DNA from: Solimonas variicoloris DSM 15731
Lineage (GTDB): Bacteria > Pseudomonadota > Gammaproteobacteria > Nevskiales > Nevskiaceae
NCBI RefSeq assembly: GCF_000382285.1
Contig: NZ_KB907929.1
Coordinates: forward strand, 1 to 64,000
Direction: 5' to 3'
DNA: 64,000 nucleotides
The notes under the pieces are model-generated. The model was not told the origin of the DNA. It ran no database searches and saw nothing but the letters and a program-made list of their open reading frames with translations. The position numbers and the translations under genes were made by a program. Below are positions 12,567-16,058 of this stretch, one piece after another (position 1 is the stretch's first letter; every line of letters starts with the position of its first letter).

Positions 12567-13769
12567 ATGACCCACGTACCGCAGATCAAAGTCCCCGCCA
12601 CCTACATGCGCGGCGGCACGTCGAAAGGCGTGTTTTTCAAGCTCGACGACCTGCCGGAGCGCTGCCGCGTGCCCGGCGAGGCGCGCGACAAGTTCCTGCT
12701 GCGCGTGATCGGCTCGCCGGATCCGTACGGCGCGCAGATCGACGGCATGGGCGGCGCCACGTCCAGCACCAGCAAGACCGTGATCCTGTCGAAGAGCTCC
12801 AAGCCCGACCACGACGTCGACTACCGATTCGGCCAGGTGTCGATCGACAAGCCCTTCGTCGACTGGTCCGGCAACTGCGGCAACCTCACCGCCGCGGTCG
12901 GCTCGTTCGCGATCAACAACGGCCTCGTCGATGCGGCGCGCATCCCGCAGAACGGTCACTGCGTCGTGCGCATCTGGCAGACGCAGATCAACAAGACCAT
13001 CATCGCCCACGTGCCGATCACGAACGGCCAGGTGCAGGAAACCGGCGACTTCGAACTCGACGGCGTGACCTTCCCGGCCGCCGAAGTGCAGATCGAATTC
13101 CTCGATCCCGCCGAGGAGGGCGACGAAGGCGGCTCGATGTTCCCGACCGGAAATCTCGTCGACGACCTCGAAGTGCCGGGCGTCGGCACGCTCAAGGCGA
13201 CGATGATCAACGCCGGCATCCCGACCGTCTTCATCAACGCCGCCGACATCGGCTACACCGGCACCGAGCTGCGCGAAGCGATCAACAGCGATGCCAAGGC
13301 GCTGGCCATGTTCGAGACCATCCGCGCCTACGGCGCGCTGCGCATGGGCCTGATCAAGGACGTCAGCGAAGCCGCCAAGCGCCAGCACACGCCGAAGGTC
13401 GCCTTCGTTGCGCCACCGAAGGATTACAAGGCGTCGAGCGGCAAGGAGATCAAGGCCAGCGACATCGATCTCAACGTGCGCGCGCTGTCGATGGGCAAGC
13501 TGCACCACGCGATGATGGGCACCGCAGCCGTGGCGATCGGCACCGCCGCGGCGATCCCCGGCACGCTGGTCAACCTCGCCGCCGGCGGCGGCGAACGCGA
13601 AGCGGTGCGCTTCGGCCACCCGTCCGGCTCCTTGCGCGTCGGCGCTGCCGCCGTGCAGGAGCCCTTGCCGAACGGGGGGGCTCAGTGGGTCGTCAAGAAA
13701 GCCATCATGTCGCGCTCCGCGCGCGTGCTGATGGAAGGCTGGGTGCGCGTGCCGGGCGATGCGTTCTAA
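12567..13769 (+). CDS. prpF: 2-methylaconitate isomerase PrpF
   Basis: PrpF is the AcnD partner that isomerises trans- to cis-2-methylaconitate so the cycle can proceed. The 400-residue protein carries the family N-terminus (YMRGGTSKGVFF), DGMGGATSSTSK and SGNCGNLTAAVG, matching the diaminopimelate-epimerase-like fold of PrpF/DUF453. It starts 31 bp after the SRPBCC gene with AGAGG upstream. A terminator 30 bp after the stop ends the prpB-prpF transcription unit. Confidence 0.95.
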   Translation: MTHVPQIKVPATYMRGGTSKGVFFKLDDLPERCRVPGEARDKFLLRVIGSPDPYGAQIDGMGGATSSTSKTVILSKSSKPDHDVDYRFGQVSIDKPFVDWSGNCGNLTAAVGSFAINNGLVDAARIPQNGHCVVRIWQTQINKTIIAHVPITNGQVQETGDFELDGVTFPAAEVQIEFLDPAEEGDEGGSMFPTGNLVDDLEVPGVGTLKATMINAGIPTVFINAADIGYTGTELREAINSDAKALAMFETIRAYGALRMGLIKDVSEAAKRQHTPKVAFVAPPKDYKASSGKEIKASDIDLNVRALSMGKLHHAMMGTAAVAIGTAAAIPGTLVNLAAGGGEREAVRFGHPSGSLRVGAAAVQEPLPNGGAQWVVKKAIMSRSARVLMEGWVRVPGDAF

Positions 13770-13799: not shown

Positions 13800-13829
13800 A
13801 AAGGCCCGGACGGCGACGTCCGGGCCTTT
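13800..13829 (+). terminator. Terminator after prpF
   Basis: A perfect 12-bp stem AAAGGCCCGGAC / GTCCGGGCCTTT with a GGCGAC loop. The T-run is short (TTT, then CT), but the A/T-flanked stem is a typical intrinsic terminator and would also work on the other strand, against the cassette gene. Confidence 0.8.
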
Positions 13830-13869
13830 CTGCATCTAGTGCTGTGGCGGCTTGGTGCCAATTGCGGTC

Positions 13870-13947
13870 GTTTAACGCCTAGCTTCACCTGCGGCCTTGA
13901 CGACGCGAAGCGGCGGCAAGGACGTCGGGTGGAAGCGTTGGTTGGGC
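13870..13947 (-). repeat. attC recombination site of an integron cassette (78 bp)
   Basis: Read on the - strand the site is: R'' GCCCAAC (13947-13941), spacer CAAC, L'' GCTTCCACC (13936-13928), a variable centre with complementary CCTTG/CAAGG, L' GGTGAAGC (13889-13882), spacer TAGGC, then GTTAAAC (13876-13870), which fits GTTRRRY. L'' has one extra base relative to L', the extrahelical-base asymmetry of attC sites. The length is within the known range. The GTTGGGC at the other cassette end (14365-14359) is the exact complement of R'', as expected for the R' of the circular cassette. Confidence 0.85.
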
Positions 13948-14364
13948 ATGAACCGCAGCCTCAGCGAAGGAGCGCAGAGGGTTGTCTTGTGGTGCCGCCG
14001 AGATGACGGCGGAGTAAAAATCTTGAGGCGAACGAAGATAGAGCGGCACTGACCAAGCCATGCCCGAGGCTCGTGAAATACGGACATAAGGCAGCCCCAA
14101 AAAAGAACGCGCCTTTGCTTCTGTTATGTCGGGCCAGCTCAGACGGCTGACTCGGTAGAGCACCAGACCCTGCTCACTGATTGACACGGTGCAAATAGCC
14201 ACGCACATGGCAAGCATGAGCACCACTTTTGCAGTTAAGGCGACCGCAACCCAATAGTGGGGCCACAGAGCTAAGAGCAGCACACCGAGAAGAATGAGTA
14301 GAAGCCACCAGCGACGCAGCCCGACCTCAAGGTAGAACACGCGGCTCATGCTGTTCATGCCCAA
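13876..14364 (-). mobile_element. Single integron gene cassette (489 bp)
   Basis: The cassette runs on the - strand from the point after G of GTTGGGC (14365-14359) to the G of GTTAAAC (13876). It holds one gene and its attC. Rejoining the ends would make an attC with perfectly matching 7-bp R'' and R' boxes. Base composition is visibly less GC-rich than its surroundings. No integrase gene or second attC is visible, so it looks like insertion at a secondary GTT site between prpF and prpD. Confidence 0.78.
13885..14358 (-). CDS. Cassette-borne membrane protein with PH-like tail
   Basis: This 157-residue protein has two closely spaced transmembrane helices at about residues 15-55 (WWLLLILLGVLLLALW and VALTAKVVLMLAMCVA). 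A soluble domain follows (VSISEQGLVLYRVSRLSWPD, then FLGLPYVRIS) resembling bacterial PH-like or YcxB-type domains. The ATG at 14358 directly follows the cassette core GTTGGGC, with no ribosome site, which is common for cassette genes. A TTG two codons upstream falls inside the core site. The last codons overlap the attC. The gene is lower in GC than its neighbours. Function is not known; the domain resemblance is weak. Confidence 0.78.
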   Translation of the reverse strand: MNSMSRVFYLEVGLRRWWLLLILLGVLLLALWPHYWVAVALTAKVVLMLAMCVAICTVSISEQGLVLYRVSRLSWPDITEAKARSFLGLPYVRISRASGMAWSVPLYLRSPQDFYSAVISAAPQDNPLRSFAEAAVHAQPTLPPDVLAAASRRQGRR

Positions 14365-14458
14365 CAGCTAATAGACGGATGCTGGGGTCAGCTTATTCAT
14401 TCCGCCGGCTACGGCTGTAAATCCCGATAAGCGATTGATTCCCATATCCCGTTCCCCT

Positions 14459-14510
14459 GCGATGCGGCATAAGCATGCCGAGCGATCCCCGCCTCATGAT
14501 GCCGTATCGC
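14459..14510. promoter_or_regulatory. Inverted repeat upstream of prpD
   Basis: GCGATGCGGCAT (14459-14470) and ATGCCGTATCGC (14499-14510) are inverted copies with one mismatch of 12, separated by 28 bp. They lie 90-140 bp before the prpD start, in the space left after the cassette. Because prpD is cut off from prpF by a terminator and the cassette, it probably has its own promoter here. The repeat may be an operator. Confidence 0.4.
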
Positions 14511-14600
14511 ACAACGGGATGTCCCACGATCCTGAGAACTGGCGCACGCTGCCCGAAGGTGCATCATGGCGGCGCCTATCCCATGCGAGGAGCCGCCGCC

Positions 14601-16058
14601 ATGTCTTCTCCCGATACGCCGTCCGCCGCCCGCCCCGAATGGGATGCGGTGCTCGTCGACATCGTCGATTACGTCGAGCGCCACGAGGTGCGGTCGGCGC
14701 TGGCCTATGAGACCGCGCGCCACTGCCTGATCGACACGCTCGGCTGCGGGCTGGAAGCGCTCGGGTATCCGGCCTGCACCAAGCTGCTCGGGCCGCTGGT
14801 GCCGGGCACGGTGGTGCCGAACGGCGCGAAGGTGCCGGGCACGCCGTTCCGGCTCGATCCGGTGCAGGCGGCGTTCAACCTCGGCACGATGATCCGCTGG
14901 CTGGACTTCAACGACACCTGGCTCGCGGCGGAGTGGGGGCATCCTTCCGACAATCTCGGCGGCATCCTCGCTGTGGCCGACTGGCTGAGCCGCGAGGCGG
15001 TCGCCGCCGGCAAGCCGCCGCTGGCGATGCGCGCGGTGCTCACGGCGATGATCAAGGCACACGAGATCCAGGGCTGCATCGCGCTGGAGAATTCGTTCAA
15101 TCGCGTCGGCCTCGACCACGTGGTGCTGGTCAAGGTGGCGACGACGGCGGTGGTCGGGCAGTTGCTCGGCCTGTCGCGCGAGGAAATGCTCAACGCGGTG
15201 TCGCTGGCCTGGGTCGACGGCCAGTCGCTGCGCACCTATCGCCACGCGCCGAACACGGGCTCGCGCAAGAGCTGGGCGGCGGGCGACGCGACCAGTCGCG
15301 GCGTGCGTCTGGCGCTGATGGCGCGCACCGGCGAGATGGGTTATCCCTCGGTGCTCACGGCCAGGACCTGGGGCTTCTACGACGTCAGCTTTGGCGGCCA
15401 GCCGTTCCGCTTCCAGCGCCCGTACGGCTCGTACGTGATGGAGAACGTGCTGTTCAAGATCAGCTTCCCCGCCGAGTTCCACGGCCAGACCGGCGCCGAG
15501 GCGGCGATGCAGGTGCATGCGCTGCTGAAGGCCTGCGGCAGGACGGCCGCGGACATTCGCCGCATCACCATCCGCACGCAGGAAGCCTGCCGACGCATCA
15601 TCGACAAGCACGGGCCGCTCGACAATCCGGCCGACCGCGACCACTGCATCCAGTACATGGTCGCGGTCGCGATCCTCTACGGCCGCCTGACGGCGGACGA
15701 TTACGAGGACGAGGTCGCCGCCGATCCGCGCATCGACGCGCTGCGCGAGAAGATCGTCTGCGTCGAAGACCCGCAGTTCACCAAGGACTATCACGACCCG
15801 GACAAGCGCAGCATCGCCAATGCGCTGCGCGTCGAGTTCACGGACGGCAGCGCGCTCGACGAGGTCGTCGTCGAATATCCGATCGGCCATCGCCGGCGCC
15901 GTGCCGAGGGCCTGCCGCTGCTCGAAGCCAAGTTCAAGACCAATCTCGCGCGCCGTTTCGCGCCGCGCCAGCAGCAGCGCATCCTCGACGCCTCACTCGA
16001 CCCGGCCACGCTGGAGCGCTTGCCGGTGCACGAGTACGTCGATCTGTACGCGCTCTGA
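14601..16058 (+). CDS. prpD: 2-methylcitrate dehydratase PrpD (MmgE/PrpD family)
   Basis: PrpD dehydrates 2-methylcitrate to cis-2-methylaconitate without an iron-sulphur cluster. At 485 residues it equals the E. coli enzyme (483). Family stretches include [55 protein letters not shown] and [25 protein letters not shown] precedes the ATG at 14601 by nine bases; an in-frame ATG at 14583 is less likely. Its presence alongside acnD/prpF gives two dehydratase routes. It is separated from prpF by a terminator and the integron cassette. Confidence 0.95.

Follow-up and report, generated by a model that had tools for sequence, protein, structure and literature searches.

How did a single gene cassette come to lie between prpF and prpD of Solimonas variicoloris DSM 15731? 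The question arises from the window, that is, the whole 64-kb stretch of contig NZ_KB907929.1 analyzed here. Neither tblastn nor a profile search gave an IntI match anywhere in it, and prpD directly follows the element with no intI relic in between. With a probability of about 0.86, comparison of related genomes suggests that the cassette is docked at an orphan attI site. This site would be one of several dispersed platforms that have no integrase of their own and are apparently supplied in trans, and cassette turnover at these platforms would outpace the divergence of the species. The features of the locus are listed in Table 1.

Table 1. Features of the prpF–prpD locus in window coordinates; a slash in a sequence marks the crossover point
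Feature	Position	Strand	Basis
prpF, flanking gene	12567..13769	+	PF04303, E 5.7e-176
GC-rich hairpin AAAGGCCCGGACG-GCGA-CGTCCGGGCCTTT after prpF, terminator-like by eye	13800..13829	+	sequence
attI, right half, /TTAAACGACCGC	13864..13875	-	sequence comparison with S. flava and the C9/C11 loci
attC, 78 bp: R'' GCCCAAC, L'' GCTTCCACC, L' GGTGAAGC, R' GTTAAAC	13870..13947	-	covariance model, bottom-strand fold
gene cassette, 489 bp from crossover to crossover	13876..14364	-	sequence; S. flava junctions at the same points, content different
cassette ORF, 157 aa from ATG, hydrophobic N-terminal part	13885..14358	-	sequence; homologue in a G040 cassette (32% identity)
attI, left (upstream) part, ends ...CCGTCTATTAGCTG/	14365..14510	-	80-82% identical to the intI-side attI of S. 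flava G007:C8
block GCGCCAGTTCTCAGGATCGTGGGACATCCC, present in most orphan attI copies of the species group and not in intI-linked copies	14511..14545	-	alignment
prpD / MmgE-PrpD family gene, likely start 14601	14601..16058	+	PF03972 and PF19305

The attC site was recognized by a covariance model with a score of 78.9 bits (E 4.6e-16), and no other sequence in the window came near it. The model had been trained on 25 attC sites of other loci, taken from integron arrays of related genomes and from other contigs of the same genome; none came from the window. The bottom strand of the site, which is the recombinogenic one and corresponds to the plus strand of the window, folded at -22.3 kcal/mol (z = -3.86), and one of 200 shuffled sequences folded as well. 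The opposite strand was unremarkable (z = -0.55). A rule-based scan returned exactly one attC in the window; 20 sequences of 64 kb obtained by Markov shuffling gave none. A stricter finder, which required five paired R positions, missed the site. On the minus strand, R'' and L'' occupy 13947-13941 and 13936-13928 (including one extra base), and L' and R' occupy 13889-13882 and 13876-13870. R'' is matched by an exactly complementary core on the gene side, GTTGGGC (14365-14359). Both G/TT boundaries of the cassette are precise and coincide with the junctions at the prp locus of S. flava. The GC content is 55-59% over the cassette versus 65-70% in its surroundings, and an Rfam scan of the window matched no family. 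The segment is an integron gene cassette. The original prediction, which had described a minus-strand cassette with this attC, this complementary core and the crossover G/TTAAAC, was borne out in each of these elements, as it was in finding a single cassette with no adjacent intI. The fold and the covariance-model score that it had offered as checks both came out in its favor.

The cassette ORF traverses most of attC (13885-13947) and stops within the L' box, so its last ~20 residues are encoded by the recombination site itself. The ORF of an S. flava cassette (G007:C11) likewise extends into its own attC. No Pfam or NCBIfam family matched the cargo protein. Its single-sequence structure model was poor (pLDDT 68.5, pTM 0.30) and gave no significant PDB match, which left the earlier suggestion of a PH-like tail unconfirmed. 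Clear homologues were found in two of about 430 genomes. The homologue in G040, a genome from another family of the same order, is encoded in a cassette on a contig that ends within the attC; near the homologue in G392, no attC was detected. A pattern search of genome and viral contigs and a tblastn search of plasmids yielded no relatives.

The target of the insertion was identified from the flank of the cassette. Positions 14360-14545 matched the prp locus of S. flava and several further loci in both genomes. The match to S. flava G007:C8 (82%, E 1.2e-36) fell on the stretch that directly separates intI from the first cassette in an array of about 20 attC sites. In S. marina, too, a homologous block adjoins an intI (G001:C29). 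The block aligns over ~150 bp without large gaps, and the clear copies share the end TATTARCTG/TTGG, with single changes in a few. An exact pattern detected the core in S. flava DSM 18980, S. marina C16B3 and S. fluminis HR-BB. We take the block to be attI because it adjoins an intact intI in two species. By this homology, the flank at 14365-14510 is an attI site, and the cassette would occupy a site of the primary type. The same homology contradicts the insertion at a secondary site within a metabolic operon that the original prediction had proposed.

The window and S. flava are about 95% identical across a shared stretch of 16.8 kb, and 97.7% over prpF. The order in S. flava is prpF, the same flank, two other cassettes, the same attI block and prpD. 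These two cassettes, with one clear and one decayed attC, are unrelated to the cassette of the window and use the same crossover points. The two outer junctions common to both species are ...CCGTCTATTAGCTG/ and /TTAAA(C)GACCGC. The prpF–prpD neighborhood occurred only in these two species; in the other congeners examined, prpD does not directly follow prpF. A comparison with cassette-free prpF–prpD gaps, which had also been proposed, found no cassette-free attI at this locus; the sole other genome with the gap gave the pair of S. flava cassettes. The cassette lies on the strand opposite to prpF and prpD. Together with the strong hairpin distal to prpF, this orientation makes an uninterrupted prpF–prpD transcript doubtful anyway. 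A simple terminator scan, which wants a longer T run, did not flag this hairpin. In S. flava, ~194 bp lie between direct repeats GGCGTGCGCCAG upstream of attI (L034 16700-16900). They are absent from the window (14530-14580), and the window lineage likely deleted them.

The attI block is not confined to the prp locus. A sequence model located it at three loci in the window genome, four in S. flava and five in S. marina (one of them weak), with weak matches at one locus each in two other congeners and in a genome of another genus. Nine clear copies are without intI: C5 (the window), C3 and C9 in the window genome; C10, C11 and C13 in S. flava (G007); and C33, C13 and C8 in S. marina (G001). Weaker copies without intI lie at G001:C31, G005:C40 and G008:C11. 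The clear copies all continue into G/TT (G/CT in the prp copy of S. flava) and cassette-like sequence, and the weak G001:C31 and G005:C40 copies are without the full canonical core. In tblastn searches with both integrase types, no intI adjoined the tested orphan copies, except for a 46-aa relic at G001:C13. The prp, C3, C9 and C11 copies and the C13 copy of S. flava had no such relic. In S. fluminis (G017:C29; L074 2200-5013), the attI core is followed by at least six attC sites, and no IntI in that genome exceeds the family cut-off. The first cassettes at the other orphan attI sites of the window genome encode a Fic/Doc-family protein (C9, L068 6450-7310) and an AAA_15 ATPase (C3, L069 1-1340). 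Genes of these kinds often have toxin-antitoxin or defense roles.

Two orthologous loci provide a relative age for these sites. The second one, C9 in the window genome and C11 in S. flava, has the same attI with a different single cassette in each species, between flanks that are 97% (upstream) and 95% (downstream) identical. The right half /TTGAACGAyCGC is common to C9 and C11 and ends both orphan arrays. It resembles /TTAAACGACCGC of the prp locus, as expected for copies of one attI. Identity between attI blocks is 91-93% when their positions are orthologous and 74-80% when they lie at different loci within the window genome or within S. flava. Since the orthologous copies are closer than the within-genome copies, attI dispersal is older than the species split. 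So the attI copies had taken their places by the time the window species and S. flava separated, and the cassettes have changed since. The prp locus is common to two species only, and cassette replacement therefore rests on these two orthologous loci. In S. marina, seemingly the same first cassette occurs at two attI copies, as judged from ~66 bp before one contig ends. G008 shows an element-free arrangement of the C9 locus, in which the two neighboring genes are adjacent. At the C9 locus of G003, a 47-bp piece of the attI block is followed by transposase-like sequence.

The earlier statement that no integrase or other attC is visible holds for the window, and fails for the genome as a whole. 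At E 0.001, 13 attC sites were found in the window genome and 28 in S. flava. Two integrase loci of the window genome exceed the family cut-off. The C23 integrase is intact and scores 456 bits with the curated IntI family; its attI, beyond which its cassettes lie, differs in sequence from the attI of the window. The C1 integrase is broken: it has an in-frame TAG, misses its N-terminus and lies at a contig end, with transposase-like sequence adjacent by eye. Compared with the intact IntI of S. flava C8, identity is 75% for the C1 relic and 49% for the C23 type. The broken C1 intI shares no flanks with the S. flava C8 locus or with the C3 attI, and orthology is not supported. For the other integron type, the C21 (L017, 1-1900) and C23 (L013, 1-2900) copies share sequence past the last attC and have a similar attI; the C21 copy retains only about 70 intI residues.

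These data suggest the following course of events. Before the split between the window species and S. flava, an attI without an integrase gene of its own already occupied the prp position. Insertion of a circular cassette would then have taken place by attC × attI recombination, through the bottom-strand attC hairpin and the G/TT crossover. The reaction was presumably catalyzed in trans by an integron integrase whose gene lies at another locus, perhaps of the matching type. Repeated insertion and excision would leave a different cassette in each species at the same attI. The cassette would be transcribed from a promoter within the attI block, where no consensus promoter was found. Because the matching-type integrase is broken in the window genome, exchange at the site may have ceased, unless the intact C23 integrase recognizes this attI. 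Since the attI of C23 is of a different sequence, its action there is at most possible.

The strongest competing explanation is that the locus is the relic of a complete integron, whose intI was deleted. The cassette differences would then date mostly from around or before this loss, with no continuing activity in trans. The 46-aa intI relic at G001:C13 and the variable left edges of the orphan copies agree with such decay, and intI decay is common in Xanthomonas (PMC12444791). We nevertheless consider this explanation rather unlikely, since relics are missing from the prp, C3, C9 and C11 copies and the C13 copy of S. flava. Moreover, the sister species, with flanks 94-98% identical, are both without intI at these loci, two of which nevertheless have different cassettes. 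Turnover most simply continued after intI had gone from the locus.

A native integrase could also have put a stray cassette into a chance G/TTAAAC between prpF and prpD. Insertion at attG sites is established (Loot 2024, as cited in PMC11023631), and it resembles the window locus in leaving an isolated cassette at a chromosomal GTTRRRY. The single cassette, the missing neighboring intI and the G/TTAAAC crossover all fit. The target of an attG insertion is unlike attI or attC, however, whereas the window target is homologous over ~150 bp to the intI-linked attI of two species and recurs at many cassette-bearing loci. S. flava also uses the same site for different cassettes. Taken together, these observations make attG insertion very improbable here. 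A chance hairpin next to an ordinary intergenic ORF, with no part played by integrons, can be dismissed, as it has only the shortness of the conserved boxes in its favor, against an E value of 4.6e-16 from an independent model and a cargo homologue in another cassette.

How the platforms arose is a separate matter. The C3 attI of the window genome and the intI-linked C8 attI of S. flava are 92.6% identical over just 148 bp, and their remaining flanks are unrelated. This match would fit an attI block that moved alone; deletion of intI together with rearrangement would fit as well. It is conceivable, though doubtful, that the block is a dispersing unit, which spreads without intI and founds new docking sites, with one integrase serving several platforms. 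The motif CAGCCCAAAGCGG or a near variant was observed upstream of attI copies (L034:16868, L069:1568, L071:4979 and L074:5232); in the 461 kb of fetched sequence, four of its five occurrences have this position. We do not claim a transposon with CAGCCCAAAGCGG as terminal inverted repeats, as neither a consistent partner at the right end nor a duplication of the target was found.

Among the known systems, CALINs also consist of one or more attC cassettes with no neighboring intI and are mobilizable in trans (PMC9024848; PMC12444791). They are defined by attC only, whereas the Solimonas loci also have a recognizable attI, most of them with one or two cassettes. The window locus has an attC without a nearby intI, as a CALIN does. 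Its one attC falls short of the at least two asked for by default in IntegronFinder 2, and it is without the intI next to attI that marks a complete integron. The sedentary chromosomal integron of S. flava (G007:C8) shares the homologous attI, the attC type and the cassette orientation, but comprises intI and about twenty cassettes, in contrast to one cassette and no adjoining intI in the window. Position-conserved CALINs of Xanthomonas (lamG, secF, recD) likewise occupy fixed loci away from intI within a species group, whereas attG insertions made in E. coli are scattered (PMC12444791); the sections consulted report no attI there, while the Solimonas loci have one. Off-target recombination by integrases at attI-like sites is known (PMC10127599).

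Our literature search, with most subscription journals outside its scope, turned up no description of attI copies that are dispersed and loaded with cassettes. Within the same scope, no paper combined Solimonas with integron gene cassettes. Beyond class 1 integrons, attI sites are poorly described. IntegronFinder has no attI detection outside class 1, and attI is no longer searched by default (PMC9024848). For these reasons, an orphan attI would be overlooked, and its cassettes would be classed as a CALIN or as secondary insertions. If action in trans is true, a genome would have several independent docking places for cassettes, beside different genes. The fixed CALIN positions of Xanthomonas (PMC12444791) would then be testable through attI homology. 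If the attI block is indeed a dispersing unit, position-fixed CALINs of other bacteria might share the arrangement.

Apart from the integron, ARAGORN predicted a tRNA-Thr(cgt) at 2418-2511 of the window, which at 94 nt is long for such a tRNA.
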